From a bacterium (lineage in GTDB: Bacteria > JAJVIF01 > JAGGVT01), in assembly GCA_021157815.1 (NCBI GenBank), contig JAGGVT010000141.1:1-8619 (forward strand): a stretch of 8,619 nt of DNA. Direction: 5' to 3'. Below are positions 297 to 8,437 of the stretch, piece by piece. The notes below the pieces were generated by a model. The model saw only the letters and a list, made by a program, of their open reading frames with translations, was not told where the DNA came from and searched no databases. The number at the start of each line of letters is the position of its first letter. Position 1 is the first letter of the stretch. The translations under genes were made by a program, and so were the position numbers.

Positions 297-902
297 TTAT
301 TTAAGATAACTCTTTAAGCCGTTTCGCATGAAATGCTTTTCGATACGCTTGTATTCATCTTGTAATGTTGTTCGTGGAATTTTTAGTATTTCTGCAATTT
401 CAACTTTCGAATATCCTTCTTTTAAGTACTCACAAATTTGAATCTGCTTTGGTTCTAATTTCTCATATACCTTCTCAATCTGGAGTTCGAATTCAGTCAA
501 TTCAAAACGGTCTAAATCAATCTGAGTCAATCCATCCTTATCGATAAACTCTATCAACTCCGAGGAATCTTCATCCTCATTTATTAATTTGTTTAATGAT
601 CCAAGATTATTATGAATTTCTCGCTTTGCTGTATCCTTTTCACGGACTAAGTCCATCAATCTGTTATTTATCACTCTGGACATATACGTTTCTTTTTTGA
701 CACCTTTCGTTTCATCGAATTTATGCCTTTTGAAAAACCAATGGGTCAAGCACTCTTGGAGAAGGTCATTTTCATCCTCTTGTGTAAAATAGGATGTGTT
801 TCGTATGAAAGTCCTGATGACAATTGTAGCTGTTCTAACTTCCCATTCCTGAAAGTCATCGCTACTATACTGATTTCCTGAGATACCTTTGCTTTTTAAC
901 AT
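297..902 (-). CDS. Sigma-70-like RNA polymerase sigma factor of the mobile element
   Basis: The 201-residue protein has the two-domain layout of a minimal sigma-70-family factor. Residues about 22-92 resemble region 2, with an acidic EDENDLLQE stretch and a basic RVINNRLMDLVREKDTAKR helix that would contact core polymerase and the -10 element. An acidic linker follows (about 108-130), then region 4 (about 143-192) with a helix-turn-helix, YSKVEIAEILKIPRTTL, for -35 recognition. Housekeeping region 1.1 and 3 are absent. Related small sigma-like proteins occur in mobile elements, for example ORF7 of Tn916, where they take part in control of transfer and excision genes. It is divergent from the recombinase genes and followed by an unrecognised gene on the same strand. 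A role in switching on element genes is inference. The start at 902 has only a weak upstream GAG. Confidence 0.8.
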   Translation of the reverse strand: MLKSKGISGNQYSSDDFQEWEVRTATIVIRTFIRNTSYFTQEDENDLLQECLTHWFFKRHKFDETKGVKKETYMSRVINNRLMDLVREKDTAKREIHNNLGSLNKLINEDEDSSELIEFIDKDGLTQIDLDRFELTEFELQIEKVYEKLEPKQIQICEYLKEGYSKVEIAEILKIPRTTLQDEYKRIEKHFMRNGLKSYLK

Positions 903-1045
903 TGCGGTATCTCAAATCAGTCAATTTAAATGTAACGCAGGCACAAGGGTTTGGAAATCACGGAGGGCTCACGGAGCTAACACAAGAAAATCATTCCGTC
1001 ACATTCCGAAGATTTTCCGTATGTACACATCAGGTGGAACATATT
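903..1045. promoter_or_regulatory. Divergent control region between sigma-like gene and plus-strand genes
   Basis: This 143-base stretch separates the two divergent transcription units and is unusually rich in short repeats. TCACGGAG occurs twice (958-965 and 969-976), CATTCCG twice (992-998 and 1002-1008), and GAAAATC (986-992) pairs with GATTTTC (1011-1017). The CGGA and TCCG motifs are complementary, so several binding sites or hairpins are possible. I find no convincing -35/-10 pair on either strand, which would fit use of a non-standard sigma factor such as the one encoded next to it (inference). Confidence 0.45.
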
Positions 1046-1052
1046 GTGTACA
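1022..1052. promoter_or_regulatory. Palindrome TGTACACA/TGTGTACA over the start of the 70-residue gene
   Basis: A perfect eight-base inverted repeat, TGTACACA (1022-1029) and TGTGTACA (1045-1052), is separated by 15 bases. The ribosome binding site AGGTGGA (1032-1038) lies in the loop and the GTG start (1046-1048) lies in the right arm. As DNA it could be an operator for a dimeric regulator; as RNA it could form a hairpin hiding the start codon. Which of these applies is not decidable from sequence. Confidence 0.45.
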
Positions 1053-1258
1053 GGGAAATAGAAGAAAAATACGTTGATGAAGAAACGGGTAATAACCAGA
1101 GTGAAAGGATCATAAGTATCCTCTCAGATGGCATCTATGATTATTTGCGATTGAATGGTTATCTCAAATCGGACACAACCAGAAAAAACAGGATAAATAA
1201 GCTAATCAAGGACGTAAGAATCCTTTCTAGTTCTGGTATTGAAGAATCAGGTGATTAA
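1046..1258 (+). CDS. Unrecognised 70-residue protein with GTG start
   Basis: The frame is open from 902, but the best start is GTG at 1046, preceded seven bases upstream by AGGTGGA. No upstream in-frame start has a comparable site, and the translated stretch before it looks like non-coding control DNA. The protein is hydrophilic and probably mostly helical, with an acidic N-terminal part (EIEEKYVDEETGN), a central ERIISILSDGIYDYLRL helix, and a basic RKNRINKLIKDVR stretch near the C-terminus that could contact nucleic acid. No cysteines, signal peptide or membrane segment are present. I do not recognise the family. Its place before the ribbon-helix-helix and recombinase genes suggests an element regulator or excision helper; this is inference. 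Confidence 0.6.
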   Translation: MYREIEEKYVDEETGNNQSERIISILSDGIYDYLRLNGYLKSDTTRKNRINKLIKDVRILSSSGIEESGD

Positions 1259-1332: not shown

Positions 1333-1494
1333 ATGAGAAAAACAACGATTGAACTTACAGATGATCAGTATTTCTATCTGATGGAAAGAGTCTTGATACT
1401 AAAAAAACAGAATAAGAGGGCATCAATGGGAGCATTGATAAGAGAGTTAATCGATAGGGATATGAAGTCCCGAAAGAAGGAGGAATCACAATGA
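1333..1494 (+). CDS. Ribbon-helix-helix DNA-binding protein (53 residues)
   Basis: The frame starts at ATG 1333 and ends with TGA at 1492-1494. The sequence shows the plan of the Arc/CopG/MetJ fold. Residues 2-8 (RKTTIEL) form the DNA-contacting beta strand. Helix A covers about residues 9-25, and a turn rich in K, R and S is followed by helix B, SMGALIRELIDRDM (about 31-44). The tail is basic and acidic, SRKKEESQ. Such proteins act as dimers and usually repress their own operon; in some mobile elements similar small proteins steer recombination direction. Its stop overlaps the recombinase start as ATGA, so translation of the two is probably coupled. The ribosome binding site before its own start is weak (GGAT). 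The fold is well supported by pattern; the exact role is inferred. Confidence 0.7.
   Translation: MRKTTIELTDDQYFYLMERVLILKKQNKRASMGALIRELIDRDMKSRKKEESQ
1477..1485 (+). promoter_or_regulatory. Strong ribosome binding site of the recombinase
   Basis: AAGGAGGAA lies inside the end of the ribbon-helix-helix gene, five bases before the recombinase ATG at 1491. Together with the ATGA overlap it fixes the recombinase start. Confidence 0.7.
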
Positions 1495-3155
1495 AAAAGT
1501 GCGGTCTGGTAATTCGTGTCAGTACTGTTAAACAAGCTGAAAACGATGAAGGTTCTCTTAAGAATCAGTCTCAAAGATTACGTGCTCATATCGATTACAA
1601 AAATAATGCCTGCGGTGAAGAGTGGACCGAAACAGAGAAATACGTTCTAAAAGCGGTTTCTGGAAAAGATTCATTTCGAAGTATTGAGTTCCAAAGACTG
1701 TTTGAGGATATTCGGTCTGGCAGAATTAATACAGTAATTTGCACTGCCCTGGACAGGATAAGTAGATCGGTAAAAGACTTTCTGAACTTCTTCGAAATAA
1801 TTAATGAATACGATGTTGAATTTGTATGCCTGAAGCAAAATTATGATACTACATCCCCACAAGGCAAACTTTTCATCACGATTATGATGGCGCTGGCTGA
1901 GTTTGAAAGAGAACAGACATCAGAACGAAATAAAGAAGCTACTCTTGCACGGGCTGAAAGAGGATTGTGGAATGGTGGTTATCTGTTGGGATATGATCTT
2001 GATGAAACTAGAAAGGGTCACTTAATCCCAAATAAAAAAGAAAAAGTGTTGGTAAATACGGTCTTTAATACTTACTTAAAATGTGGTTCCTTTTTGGAAA
2101 CTGCAAGAATCATGAATAGCAAAGGATTCAGGACAAAAGCATACACAACCAGAGCTGGGAAATATCGTCCTGCAAAAGAGTTCTGCTATTCATCTATCCA
2201 GCTGATGCTTACCAATCAGGCATATATTGGCAAAAAGGAAATCAACAAGGGTAAGAAGAAAATTGTGGATGAGAATATGCCAGAAAGGAAAAGGTATCGT
2301 ATTGTCGATGCAGTTTGGAAACCTATTGTTGATGAGAAAAAGTTCATTGAAGTTCAGGAACTTATCAGAAAAAATCATAAAACCAGGCATAATCAGGTCA
2401 AATCGATAAAGCACAACTACATTTTGAATAGTGGTCTGTTATGGTGTGAACATTGCGGATCTGAAATGGAGGGAAGATCAGGAACCGGTAAATTGGGAGT
2501 TCGATATTACTACTATCGATGTAAAAATCCAGATTGCCATTTTAAAGTTCCTGCCAGTGAAATAGAGTCCCTAATTCTAGGTAGAATCAAGAAAATCTCC
2601 GATAAAAAGGAGATTATAGACGCAATTGTTAAGCAGACAAATTTAAATCTTCAAAAGGAACTCCCTCTGATAAAAGAACAAAGGACAGTTTTAATGAGTG
2701 AGTTGGATAAAACCAAGGAATTCGCTGAGGGGATCATCAATAAATGGGAATCAATGGCTGATGATGAAACCAGTGTTTTTATCAAAGAAAAACTTGAGAA
2801 ACTGGGGAAACGTCGAAAGGATATTGAATCGGGAATACAAGCACTGGATGAAATGATAGAGGAAATTGAACGGGAAAATATCAGTCAGAAAATGGTTGAA
2901 TTAGCCCTTGGTAAGTTCAACGATGTCTTCCAGCATATCAAGCCCTATCAACAAAAAGAGTTGGTTGGACTGGTTCTTCACAAAGCAATTGTTGGTCCTG
3001 AAAAACTGAAAATCGCCCTTTATGGACGATTACCTGAAGTTGATGCTGTTATCAATGCCAGTCTTGATGCACGCTCTGTGACAGCAGTGTGGCGTCCCAG
3101 ACAGGATTCGAACCTGTGGCCTCAACCTCCGCAGGGTTGCGCTCTATCCAGCTGA
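1491..3155 (+). CDS. Large serine recombinase (site-specific integrase), C-terminus extended into tRNA-Arg
   Basis: This is a serine integrase that would cut and rejoin attP and attB through a covalent serine-DNA link. The N-terminal resolvase domain (about 1-150) holds the nucleophile S11 with R9 (VIRVST), the LDRISRS motif (D88, R89, R92), and the long helix GKLFITIMMALAEFEREQTSER. The recombinase DNA-binding domain is about 160-290. A zinc ribbon follows with cysteines C319, C322, C344 and C349. A coiled coil (about 385-465), which in this family controls synapsis and direction, precedes a short C-terminal part. The frame does not stop at the element edge: residues 534-554, starting WRPRQDSNLWPQPPQGC, are the complement of tRNA-Arg. 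The unintegrated form therefore probably has a different C-terminus. At 554 residues it is in the usual range for the family. No terminator follows, so transcription would run antisense into the tRNA. Confidence 0.93.
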   Translation: MKKCGLVIRVSTVKQAENDEGSLKNQSQRLRAHIDYKNNACGEEWTETEKYVLKAVSGKDSFRSIEFQRLFEDIRSGRINTVICTALDRISRSVKDFLNFFEIINEYDVEFVCLKQNYDTTSPQGKLFITIMMALAEFEREQTSERNKEATLARAERGLWNGGYLLGYDLDETRKGHLIPNKKEKVLVNTVFNTYLKCGSFLETARIMNSKGFRTKAYTTRAGKYRPAKEFCYSSIQLMLTNQAYIGKKEINKGKKKIVDENMPERKRYRIVDAVWKPIVDEKKFIEVQELIRKNHKTRHNQVKSIKHNYILNSGLLWCEHCGSEMEGRSGTGKLGVRYYYYRCKNPDCHFKVPASEIESLILGRIKKISDKKEIIDAIVKQTNLNLQKELPLIKEQRTVLMSELDKTKEFAEGIINKWESMADDETSVFIKEKLEKLGKRRKDIESGIQALDEMIEEIERENISQKMVELALGKFNDVFQHIKPYQQKELVGLVLHKAIVGPEKLKIALYGRLPEVDAVINASLDARSVTAVWRPRQDSNLWPQPPQGCALSS

Positions 3156-3166
3156 GCTACTGGGAC
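3090..3166 (-). tRNA. tRNA-Arg (GCG anticodon), element integration site
   Basis: The minus strand from 3166 folds into a full cloverleaf. The acceptor stem is GTCCCAG/CTGGGAC, the D stem GCTC/GAGC, the anticodon stem CAACC/GGTTG with loop CTGCGGA, the variable loop AGGCC, and the T arm ACAGG-TTCGAAT-CCTGT. The discriminator is G and CCA is encoded (3090-3092). The anticodon GCG (3130-3132) reads CGC and CGU. In most bacteria this box is served by an ACG anticodon instead, so GCG is worth noting. The gene is intact although the recombinase frame overlaps it on the other strand, as expected when an element supplies the missing 3' tRNA sequence on integration. Confidence 0.95.
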
Positions 3167-3216: not shown

Positions 3217-3388
3217 TTGCAGCCCAAGTATATTTTATCCCGGCGATATTTGTTTCATTTCTGATACCCCTCAAAAGAAAAATAGATGGCGGATTTCTTT
3301 AATCTGTGCTGGTATTTTCCGCTAAAAAATATCAGAATATGCGGGTTTGATTCTATCTACACGCACAGATATTTTAGGGAGATCAAAG

Positions 3389-5404
3389 TTGACAAAGGTA
3401 AAAGAGAATATCGACCAGCTTTGCATTAACACAATCCGAACGCTGTCAATCGACATGATTAACAGGGCGCAATCAGGGCATCCGGGAATGCCGCTTGGGG
3501 CGGCGCCTATGGCGTATGTTTTGTTTACGCGGCACTTGAGATTCAATCCGAAGAAACCTGACTGGCATGACAGGGACAGGTTTGTGCTTGCCGGGGGGCA
3601 TGGCAGCGCGATGCTATATTCCATGCTTCATTTGTGCGGATATAAACTCTCGATGAAAGATATAAAAAACTTCCGGCAGCTCGACAGCATAACTCCGGGA
3701 CATCCTGAATTTCTCCTCACGCCCGGAGTCGAGGCTACCACCGGCCCTCTCGGACAAGGCGAGGCAAACGCGGTTGGCATGGCAATCGCTGAAAGAGCGT
3801 TGGCGAATCGTTTTAACAAGAGCGGTTTAAATATTATTGGCCATTACACTTATTCGATAGTTACAGATGGCGGCCTTATGGAGGGGGTTTCAGCAGAGGC
3901 GGCATCGCTGGCAGGGCATCTAAAACTAGGAAAACTGATTTATCTATATGATGCGAACGATATCTGCCTTGACGGTCCAATCTCTCTTACCTTCTCGACT
4001 GAGAATGTCGCGCAGCGTTTTAAAGCTTACGGTTGGCATGTTCAGACAGTCAAGGATGGCAATACCGATATCGATGCCATTGACAAAGCGATAATCAAAG
4101 CGAAAGAGGAAACATCGAAACCATCGCTGATAATCGTCAAAACCACAATCGGTTACGGCTCCCCGCATAAAGCGAATACCTCATCATGCCACGGAAGCCC
4201 CCTTGGAAAAGAGGAAACCAAACTAACTAAAAAGGAACTTGGCTGGAATTATGAAAAGGAGTTTTATATTCCCCAAAAAGTAAAAGCGCATTTTAAGAAA
4301 TTTGAGAAAAAAGATATTGCTCTCTATAACAAATGGCAGGTGATGTTCAATAAATATAAAAAGAAATACCCCGAACTTGCAAAGGAGTGGAAACGCGTCT
4401 GGACAAGGGGGATTCCCGCAGATATCAACAAGGTTTTCCCGAAATTTAAAACCGGAGAAATGGCCGGAACACGTCACGCATCGAAAAAGATTCTGAATGC
4501 GGTTGCCGCAAAGATGCCTGAAATAATCGTCGGTGCAGGTGATGTCGCGATGTCCACTCTCGCGCAGCTTGATGGCATGGGCGTTTTCGATGGCCAATCC
4601 GGCGAGGGTCGAAATATCTATTACGGAGTGCGCGAACATGCGATGGGAGCAATCGCAAACGGGGTGGCATACCACGGCGGAATCCTTCCGTTCGTTTCGT
4701 CCTATTTCACTTTCACGGATTACATGCGACCCGCGATGCGCCTTGCCGCAATGAATAACCTGAATGTTTTTTATATTGTAACCCACGATTCAATCGCGGT
4801 TGGCGAGGATGGCCCTACCCATCAGCCGGTAGAGCATCTGATGTCCCTTAGAGCAATGCCGAACATGATTGTATTTCGTCCCGCGGATGCCACAGAAACC
4901 GAACAAGCGTGGAAATGGGCGTTGGCAAATCAGAACCAGCCAATCGCGTTTGTGTTTACCCGCCAGAAACTACCGGTTATAGACAGACAGAAATTCTCAT
5001 CCGTGCGGGGAGTGATCAAAGGCGCGTATGTCATTTCCGACCCGCCTGATTGTAAAGCAAAAGCGATAATAATCGCCACCGGCTCAGAGGTTCATATCGC
5101 TCTTGATGCTCAGGAGATTTTAGCGCGCAAAGGAATTAAAACACGTGTTGTTTCGATGCCGTCATGGGAGATTTTCGAAAAGCAAAGCGCAAAATACAGG
5201 GAGAATGTTCTGCCGTCATCTATAAAAGCGCGTGTTTCGGTCGAGGCTGGCGTTACAACAGGCTGGGAGAAATGGATTGGATTCGATGGCGCAGCTGTTG
5301 GCGTTGATGAATTCGGCAAGTCTGCTCCGGGTGATGTTCTTATGAAGGATTTTAAAATCACGTCTGGAAATATTGTAAGCAAAGTAATGAAGTTGTTGGA
5401 ATAG
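3389..5404 (+). CDS. tkt: Transketolase
   Basis: Transketolase moves two-carbon ketol units between sugar phosphates in the non-oxidative pentose phosphate pathway, using thiamine diphosphate and a divalent metal; it acts as a cytosolic dimer. The frame is open from 3347, but AGGGAGA (3376-3382) sits six bases before TTG 3389. That start gives 671 residues, matching the usual length. In this numbering H31 (SGHPG), H71 (GGHGS), D160 and N190 (metal ligands), H268, catalytic E416 (REHAMG), D474, H478 (GPTHQP) and R525 line up with the known Escherichia coli residues, nearly all at a constant offset of five. The usual GDG of the cofactor motif reads TDGG here (T159), a mild deviation. Pyrophosphate, pyrimidine and C-terminal domains are all present. 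The gene is GC-richer than the element to its left, stands alone and is divergent from tRNA-Arg. Confidence 0.95.
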
Positions 5405-6050: not shown

Positions 6051-6710
6051 TTATTTCGTCAGGCCATTTCCACTATTTTCGATATGCTCAGACGATTGCT
6101 CAATAGTGGCGATGGTATATAAAATATAACTTCTCTCTGATAAATCAATGCTTTCCGAGTATTGCTTAAGATATGGAAGCGCAGAGGTTGCTCCAGGTCC
6201 GATTGTTCTCAGTACTCGAATTGCATTTTTAATTTCTTTTGGTGAGCCATTTTTCAATACTCCAATTAACCGTTCCACAGCAGATTCGTAATTACCATTT
6301 ATTCTATTTATTGCATTTGCAGCATCAAGAGCGAGGGGATAATATTCGCATGTTAAAAGGGGAAGAATGTCTTTAATTGAAGTATTTGATTCTGATGTTA
6401 CGGTTTCTAGAATCTCTTTAATTGCTCTCCTTGACCTGTATTTATTTTCATTGTCAAGCATATGAGTCAATATTGGCAATGTTGGGGAAGATATGCTTCC
6501 CAAATCACCAAGTGTTGTTATTGCCAAATCCCTTCTGTCAAAATCTTTACTCAGTGCCATTTCAATCAGTATTTCCATTACTCTATCGGAGTCAATTTTA
6601 TCCTGCAATACGAGTTGAACGATTCTTTGCATGTTATTTCTGTCAAAGCTGTTTAATGTATCGAAAAGAATGTCAATCAGAACATCATCATTCAAATCGA
6701 TTGATGCCAC
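6051..6710 (-). pseudogene. C-terminal part of split HEAT-repeat protein
   Basis: This 219-codon frame encodes helical repeats continuing the preceding gene. Clear units are DRVMEILIEMALSKDFDRRD followed by LAITTLGDLGSISSPTLPILT, and AVERLIGVLKNG followed by IRVLRTIGPGATSALPYLK, the pattern of HEAT (PBS-lyase-type) repeats, which act as protein-binding scaffolds. The nominal start is GTG at 6710 with no ribosome binding site at a proper distance. The frame stays open upstream through the six-G run at 6749-6754, giving DSKTHSFKAINSI before the GTG. It is therefore best read as the detached end of the upstream gene. If an independent product is made, it would lack the membrane anchor. Repeat assignment is good; whether the split is real, a sequencing error or functional is open. 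Confidence 0.7.
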
Positions 6711-6718
6711 AATACTAT

Positions 6719-8437
6719 TTATTGCCTTGAAGGAATGTGTCTTAGAATCCCCCCTGCAAACCTGGTATAGATTTGATGAAGCACAGGGAGAGATTTATCT
6801 GGTACTGGCTTGAGTTTGCCAAGCATGTTAATAATTGGAATCCGTCTTGTTCTATCTGCCTGTATTAACACTTCCAATAGCCTCTTCACAACAACATCAT
6901 AATCACCCCCAAGTGTTAGAATCATTTCAGCAATGCCAGTTATATTCATGTTTGAATTGCGATTCAATAATTTGTATAACCCGGGAAGGGCATCACTGCT
7001 ATCAGAATTTGGGAAATTTCTCAACATATCAATGGCATTTTGTGCTTTGGTGGCTGGTTGGTCCGCATTGATTATCTCTATTAATGCTGGCAGTATGAGT
7101 TCGTTTTCTGGTTCATTAGCAAAAATTCTGCGAACAGCGAGATATTTCACATCAGGATCAATATCATCAAGTGATTCAAACAACATGGATTTGATTTCAG
7201 GATAATCGCAATATCTTGTCATTTCTTCAATCGCTTTCTCTCGATATCGCGGGTTTTTATTATTCAGCATCTCACCAAAAATACTAATCAAAGCTTCGTT
7301 TGAACCTTCTATGCTTTGTATTGCCTCTCTTGCGTCCTGGCGTATTAACTCATCATCGTTTTTCGCCAGTTCTATCAGTCTTGGTATCGCTTCATATGCT
7401 GACGAGCCAATTCGATTTAGCCTGTTCATAATAAAAAACGAATTATAGTCAGGTAACTGACTATTTAACTCTTTTATCAAAAATGCCAGATGTTCTTTCT
7501 TTTCATTATCAATCATGTAAAGGGAAGATCGTATGTTTATCTCATCAAAATGGTTGCTATTTAACAGTTTCTTTTCCAGTATAGGAATTGCATCCGTTGC
7601 CGAAGGTCCTATATTACCAAGCGCGGTTATTACAGTATCATGCAAGGAATAGTTTTTATTCCTTGAAATTGAACTACCGGGAACATCCCGGTTAATATCC
7701 TTTCTTTTTAGAACGCTAATCAATGCTGGAACCGCATCAACAGAACGGTCTCCCAGCAATCCAAGTTGACCAACTGCATACGCTTTTTCATACATAATGT
7801 TGGTGTTCATCATTTTTAAATAGAATTTGACAATATCGACTGGGTAATCAATGTCGATTAGCTCGTCAGAACTATGATCATGCCGGTATTTATCCCTAAA
7901 TCTGCGAATATATTGACTATCAGATTGAAATATTCTGAGCTTTCTATTTTCGATTATCTGCTGCAATAACTCCATTTGATCCTGAATAGATGCTTGAGGA
8001 TTGTCACGACAAATTCTATCCTTGAACGGTTGTGGTTCTGCTACATAATTACTTAGTTCAAGTTTGATTCGCGCTGAGCCTCTTTCATACGCTTGCTTGA
8101 TTACCGGCATTGCATCTTCGCGTCTTTTATTCAACACAGAATGAGTTGCCAGGCGAACATCAACACAACGATGTGATAAAAAAGGGATTACTGTTTTCGT
8201 GGATGTGTTTTGAAATATGCAATGCAAATGTTTGTGACGTGGTGATTTATTCAATTGAAAATGATTTAAATGATTTGTAGATTCCGGCGTGGCCAAGAGC
8301 ACTATTTCAACAGCCTGTTTCAAAAGCCACGGAGCTTTAACATCACCGTTATACTGCCTGATGCCTTCCTGCACGTAAATGAATGCGCAAATCACAAGGA
8401 AAATAATCAATATTATGCGTCGTTTGCGTGAAAGCAT
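6719..8437 (-). CDS. Membrane-anchored HEAT-repeat protein, frameshifted near its end
   Basis: The 572-residue frame starts at ATG 8437 behind GAGG about nine bases upstream. Residues 1-7 are basic (MLSRKRR) and 8-22 are hydrophobic (ILIIFLVICAFIYV region), a signal anchor that would place the rest outside the cytoplasmic membrane. The N-terminal third shows no family I recognise. From about residue 200 helical HEAT-type repeats are evident, for example YAVGQLGLLGDRSVDAVPAL, VITALGNIGPSATDAIPIL and MNRLNRIGSSAYEAIPRLIE, running to the end. HEAT arrays bind partner proteins; no catalytic motif is seen. After G563 the frame leaves the repeat pattern and ends in ILRHIPSRQ, while the next frame carries on the repeats. 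One more G at 6749-6754 would give a single 795-residue protein. The partner and process are unknown. Confidence 0.75.
   Translation of the reverse strand: MLSRKRRIILIIFLVICAFIYVQEGIRQYNGDVKAPWLLKQAVEIVLLATPESTNHLNHFQLNKSPRHKHLHCIFQNTSTKTVIPFLSHRCVDVRLATHSVLNKRREDAMPVIKQAYERGSARIKLELSNYVAEPQPFKDRICRDNPQASIQDQMELLQQIIENRKLRIFQSDSQYIRRFRDKYRHDHSSDELIDIDYPVDIVKFYLKMMNTNIMYEKAYAVGQLGLLGDRSVDAVPALISVLKRKDINRDVPGSSISRNKNYSLHDTVITALGNIGPSATDAIPILEKKLLNSNHFDEINIRSSLYMIDNEKKEHLAFLIKELNSQLPDYNSFFIMNRLNRIGSSAYEAIPRLIELAKNDDELIRQDAREAIQSIEGSNEALISIFGEMLNNKNPRYREKAIEEMTRYCDYPEIKSMLFESLDDIDPDVKYLAVRRIFANEPENELILPALIEIINADQPATKAQNAIDMLRNFPNSDSSDALPGLYKLLNRNSNMNITGIAEMILTLGGDYDVVVKRLLEVLIQADRTRRIPIINMLGKLKPVPDKSLPVLHQIYTRFAGGILRHIPSRQ
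6749..6754 (-). other. Frameshift site: run of six G joining the two HEAT frames
   Basis: On the minus strand the codons GCA GGG GGG ATT lead to the early stop. Re-reading one G, or a seventh G, gives GCA GGG GGG GAT TCT and continues without stop into the 219-codon frame. Homopolymer runs are prone to indels in replication and in sequencing. Slippage back by one on GGG is also possible, since the P-site codon stays GGG. Confidence 0.65.

Follow-up and report, generated by a model that had tools for sequence, protein, structure and literature searches.

Large serine integrases known from phages (those of the A118, TP901-1 and Geobacillus E2 type) mostly use protein-coding or intergenic targets. 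At the locus analyzed here, the reading frame of such an enzyme runs into a tRNA gene and is closed there, which raises the question of whether this gene end is an accident of one strain, the consequence of an attachment site embedded in the integrase gene, or a device by which the enzyme responds to its own integration. The window (the whole stretch of DNA that was analyzed) is one entire contig of 8619 bp from a bacterial genome of 3.2 Mb that is 91% complete. The host side lies to the right of the tRNA-Arg gene and the left side consists of element genes up to the contig end, the last 3.1 kb of the element being all that the window holds.

The integrase gene (1491..3155, plus strand) encodes 554 aa and was assigned by Pfam and by the integrase family PHROG 95 (E 9.6e-97). 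The Pfam domains above the cut-off are PF00239 (Resolvase), PF07508 (Recombinase), and PF13408 (zinc ribbon), and their order is that expected of a large serine recombinase, with the catalytic resolvase domain at the N-terminus followed by the Recombinase domain, the zinc ribbon, and a coiled coil; in the AlphaFold2 model, long helices occupy residues 373-461. Judging from this domain content, the enzyme is a putative catalyst of attP x attB recombination. The tRNA-Arg(gcg) gene (3090..3166, minus strand; ARAGORN and Rfam, 68.8 bits) is intact, has an encoded CCA, and is taken as the integration target. As the earlier note had claimed and the ORF, ARAGORN, and Rfam calls confirm, there is no integrase stop ahead of this tRNA: the TGG codon of W534 (3090-3092) is the antisense of the CCA, codons 534-554 (3090..3152, plus strand; 21 residues, WRPRQDSNLWPQPPQGCALSS) are read off the antisense strand of the tRNA, and the frame ends at 3155 with a TGA (3153-3155) that is antisense to the D arm. 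The chance of 21 open codons is approximately 0.37 for random codons, and an open frame of this length is unremarkable alone. The integrase gene adjoins the intact tRNA and the element lies on the tRNA 3' side, an arrangement found alike in the relatives. We infer that the edge of the element is at the tRNA, the other prophage end being absent from the assembled genome.

Relatives of the integrase were collected by alignments built around the window protein, which yielded L071, L151, L152, L153, and a truncated L154 from viral contigs and L158 and L159 from bacterial genomes, and by profile searches of two samples of the group around L158, which yielded G356 and then G487, G530, G522, G710, and G705; the first scans, which used a single integrase sequence as query, had given no matches. 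Thirteen members, including the window, keep this gene end, and the 12 relatives are 27-63% identical over the conserved part. The target is tRNA-Arg in the window only and tRNA-Asn in L071, L151, L158, L159, G356, G530, G522, G710, and G705. That of L152, which is cut, was judged by the anticodon to be tRNA-Gln, L153 stops after nine tRNA bases, and G487 has only a 24-bp piece of a tRNA 3' end, which no tRNA follows. The part of the tail read from the tRNA ranges from 4 to 21 residues across the relatives, and where a tRNA-Asn member has a 13-residue tail, its stop is a TAA read from the anticodon region. The previous description of a large serine integrase with a tRNA target and a shared C-terminus is borne out. 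No overlap with a tRNA occurred in a set of 84 more distant serine integrases taken from viral contigs. Two distant serine integrases from other lineages, L014 and L010, end in antisense tRNA-Met and tRNA-Glu (L065 9373-9445 and L066 12969-13041; ends ...GGGFEPPTSGL and ...APTGIEPVPSP), and the available contig stretches gave no convincing copy of the tRNA 3' end at the far side.

Next to the integrase the members share a gene order: a sigma-like regulator is accompanied by a small gene on the same strand, and a small ORF directly precedes the integrase. In the window these neighbors include a sigma-70-like regulator (297..902, minus strand; Pfam, PHROG, and the relatives' gene order) and a small conserved phage gene with homologues in L154, L071, and L158, of which only the start is present ahead of the contig end (1..227, minus strand). 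The small ORF upstream of the integrase (902..1258, plus strand) resembles ORFs of several relatives in its C-terminal part (BLASTP E 5e-9 to 4e-4) and had no match in Pfam and PHROG searches; as a guess, it could be a candidate directionality factor. A 53-aa ORF (1333..1494, plus strand; ORF call) overlaps the integrase start by four bases. The closest relative, L154, has 171 residues of the integrase, 83% of them identical to the window protein, and continues into a helicase-like gene, a primase, a methyltransferase, and both terminase subunits. These packaging and replication genes (both terminase subunits and the primase) make a tailed temperate phage the most likely identity of the element. 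A host transketolase gene (3347..5404, plus strand; Pfam) follows on the chromosome side of the tRNA. Two adjoining HEAT-repeat proteins of 219 and 572 aa (Pfam HEAT_2) are encoded further along the host side (6051-8437, minus strand).

The frame was open to the TGG of the tRNA end in 13/13 members, and this TGG was always a codon in the same phase. Between Y511, the last conserved position, and the tRNA there are 19 to 27 codons across the members, and at least nine changes of spacer length, all of whole codons, can be counted on a tree of the conserved part. If the frame were free, this would have a probability of (1/3)^9 = 5e-5, which is approximate since several tree nodes are weakly supported. 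On this comparison of sequences, the shared phase despite at least nine length changes is beyond chance, and such conservation suggests either a need for translation through the arm-bearing last codons ahead of the tRNA (see below) or harm from tails in another frame. The 19 bases preceding the TGG follow a common pattern, RCGCNNTGNGNNACCAAAC, in which T at -13 and G at -10 are invariant. Their conservation amounts to 1.28 bits at codon position 3, compared with 0.75 at position 1 and 0.68 at position 2, and this peak at third positions argues for a DNA site rather than a peptide. The motif kept in the 13 members, which in the window is ACGCTCTGTGACAGCAGTG (3071..3089, plus strand), is read here as the phage arm (P arm) of attP lying within the last codons of the integrase gene.

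Several further observations concern this arm. A search of viral contigs for a free attP with the DNA pattern of the arm returned known members and chance matches only. In the window (3071-3105), TCTGNGACNNCA occurs in the arm and, inverted, in the tRNA 3' end, the pair being centered near 3088 and possibly representing the two half-sites of the integrase; this dyad is pronounced in the window but weak in most of the relatives and was therefore not relied on. Approximately 20 bases of the G487 arm (GCGCTCTGCGCCGTTAGCC) recur in opposite orientation upstream of two host genes, far beyond chance (73348, 9371, and 10653 on the reverse complement of G487:C1; L206-L209), and 80 bp inward from the far end of the G356 element there is an inverted arm-like sequence, CCAGTTTGGTGCTCATCAGCACG (reverse-complement 10948 of G356:C11; L185/L186).

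The earlier note had expected a copy of the tRNA end at the far side of the element, and such a copy was seen in G356. This genome supplied the single complete att pair, from a decayed element with a frameshift in the first half of its integrase and with two surviving junctions 3.9 kb apart. On the reverse complement of G356:C11, position 14753 on the tRNA side and position 10868 on the far side carry a 17-bp exact repeat of the tRNA 3' end, TGGCTCCCCGGGCAGGA, and the match extends to 20 bases with one mismatch. By position, and with the length taken from the G356 pair, the probable shared core in the window is TGGCGTCCCAGACAGGA (3090..3106, plus strand), i.e., the tRNA 3' end. In the window's own genome, an incomplete bin, searches for a second tRNA copy (a 23-mer with three mismatches and a 16-mer with two) returned the known one only, and the left end of the contig showed no overlap with other contigs of the bin. 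Prophage contigs are often missing from genome bins. Phage primase and terminase genes were likewise not found in this bin, which probably accounts for the missing far end of the prophage. No second copy was found in G705 (46 kb upstream), G487, or L159, where a 10-bp CACGATTGGC repeat near 3925 was judged to be chance, and in G064 and G065 the search matched other tRNA-like sequences only. A search for the empty site matched only other tRNA genes of the comparison genomes, a set without a close relative and with only three genomes from the class of the window's organism.

Other features were noted around these ends. The frame of G487 (L206; G487:C1, reverse-complement 73367-73469) crosses the 24-bp tRNA fragment and then a sequence of approximately 50 bp that is repeated about 720 bp further on, near the end of proA; this stretch may be a rearranged junction or a captured attP. 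Moreover, tyrosine-recombinase-like genes, judged from translation, are present in L159 (6489-7523) and G487 (reverse-complement 22606-23529), positioned either ahead of the serine integrase gene or close to the far side.

Taken together, the window is very probably the right end of a tailed temperate prophage that was inserted by its own integrase at the 3' end of tRNA-Arg, with an attP that overlaps the integrase gene and with a C-terminal tail of little consequence. The left arm of attP would be formed by the last codons of the gene, and the core by a tRNA 3' copy of approximately 17-20 bp comprising the CCA, the discriminator, the acceptor strand, and part of the T stem; the core length in the window phage and the crossover point are presumed. 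Recombination with the real tRNA would leave a working tRNA and fuse the integrase frame to it. In the prophage the last codons and the stop would be supplied by the host tRNA; the frame of the free circle would instead continue through the tRNA copy carried by the phage into further phage sequence.

A C-terminus that depends on the integration state, as previously proposed, was sought in attP rebuilt for G356 by joining arm, core, and right arm. The frame ends ...VVPNWLPGQDSGPLLCTHVLNVRAGQFYKGAQFGAHQHAHAKA in this attP versus ...VVPNWLPGQDSNLQPIG in the integrated state, with the C-termini ...WLPGQDS-GPLLCTHVL... and ...WLPGQDS-NLQPIG, respectively, the former being longer by 26 residues. The seven residues after PN are identical in both states and the remainder is different, so the proposal holds for G356 only beyond the seven residues encoded by the phage's own 17-bp copy. 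It does not hold for L071 (WLPE) and L151 (WLLG), in which the stop is reached within the first 15 bases of the tRNA and hence inside the shared segment; a phage-borne stop would follow, and the free and integrated forms are expected to give the same product, provided that the core has that length in these two.

Whether such a difference acts as a switch is a separate question. It has been suggested that integrase activity could be coupled to integration. In such a switch, the longer attP tail of the free circle or the tRNA tail of the prophage would alter the stability, activity, or direction of the enzyme, much as integration affects the repressor in the integration-dependent immunity of mycobacteriophages. 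The frame into the core has been kept through at least nine indels and the rebuilt G356 product is 26 residues longer than the prophage form, both of which would fit such a role. However, residues 512-554 have a pLDDT below 50 and are predicted to be disordered (AlphaFold2, seven family sequences), the tRNA-read part varies between 4 and 21 residues, L071 and L151 would be alike in both states, and the arm is kept as DNA rather than as peptide. A disordered tail of variable length argues against coupling, for which no support was obtained, and a switch of this kind is very unlikely. A built-in switch, in which free-circle and prophage tails would differ in stability or direction and the enzyme would sense integration through the host tRNA, is very unlikely. 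The overlap probably does not act as a switch, and the tail is best regarded as a disordered appendage whose state-dependent part is most likely of little consequence.

It is also very unlikely that the integrase is an isolated remnant to which the tRNA is merely a neighbor. Neither a far end nor other genes of the phage were found in the bin, which would fit this explanation, but relatives at tRNA-Arg, tRNA-Asn, and tRNA-Gln always enter at the same base, G356 carries the tRNA repeat, and the window's integrase and adjoining genes are open and full-length. Finally, loss of the integrase's own stop in this strain, with an accidental reading into the tRNA, is extremely improbable and was rejected because the 12 relatives share the phase with no stop ahead of the tRNA despite spacer-length changes, even though 21 open codons can readily arise by chance.

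An attachment site at the gene end would have several implications. These enzymes appear to form a coherent family of large serine integrases from several uncultured bacterial groups that use tRNA 3' ends as a rule, and the carrier in the window would be a bacterial virus of a little-known family whose insertion point is precisely where a host tRNA gene ends. With a natural attP embedded in the gene, gene and site would travel together and half of the site could be read from the gene. Such integrases could serve as tools for integration into a type of target that every bacterium possesses, and the overlap accounts for some integrase annotations that end in tRNA-like peptides.

Several known systems resemble parts of this arrangement. 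The A118, TP901-1, and Geobacillus E2 integrases have the same domain order and fold family as the window enzyme, at an identity under 32%. In the open-licence literature, no paper was found on a large serine integrase frame closed by its tRNA target. The filamentous Ralstonia phages phiRSM1/phiRSM3 and phiRs551 likewise use a serine recombinase at a tRNA 3' end in reverse orientation, with a 13-bp core that begins with TGGCG, i.e., at the CCA; in contrast to the window, their recombinase is a small resolvase-type enzyme, the target is tRNA-Ser, and attP is described between ORF14 and ORF15, outside the recombinase frame (PMC3816273, PMC5608472). Eight serine recombinases of mycobacteria at tRNA-Leu were reported, and called rare, in a survey of actinobacterial elements that cites phiRSM1; these AICE recombinases are also Recombinase-family (PF07508) enzymes at a tRNA, whereas their elements, compared by description only, are conjugative (PMC3218068). 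The tRNA sites reported in Mycobacterium abscessus are those of tyrosine integrases (PMC10654092). An attP within a reading frame whose product is altered by integration is described for the repressor of mycobacteriophage BPs (PMC4557955, PMC10865867) and for ORF13 of phiRSS0, a putative repressor (PMC3816273). Both share with the window an attP in a reading frame and a C-terminus altered by integration; the difference is that the gene there is a repressor or putative repressor, whereas in the window it is an integrase with no sign of a switch. Serine recombinases at tRNAs and attP-in-frame repressors were thus already known, and what appears to be new is that the target tRNA closes the frame of a large serine integrase.
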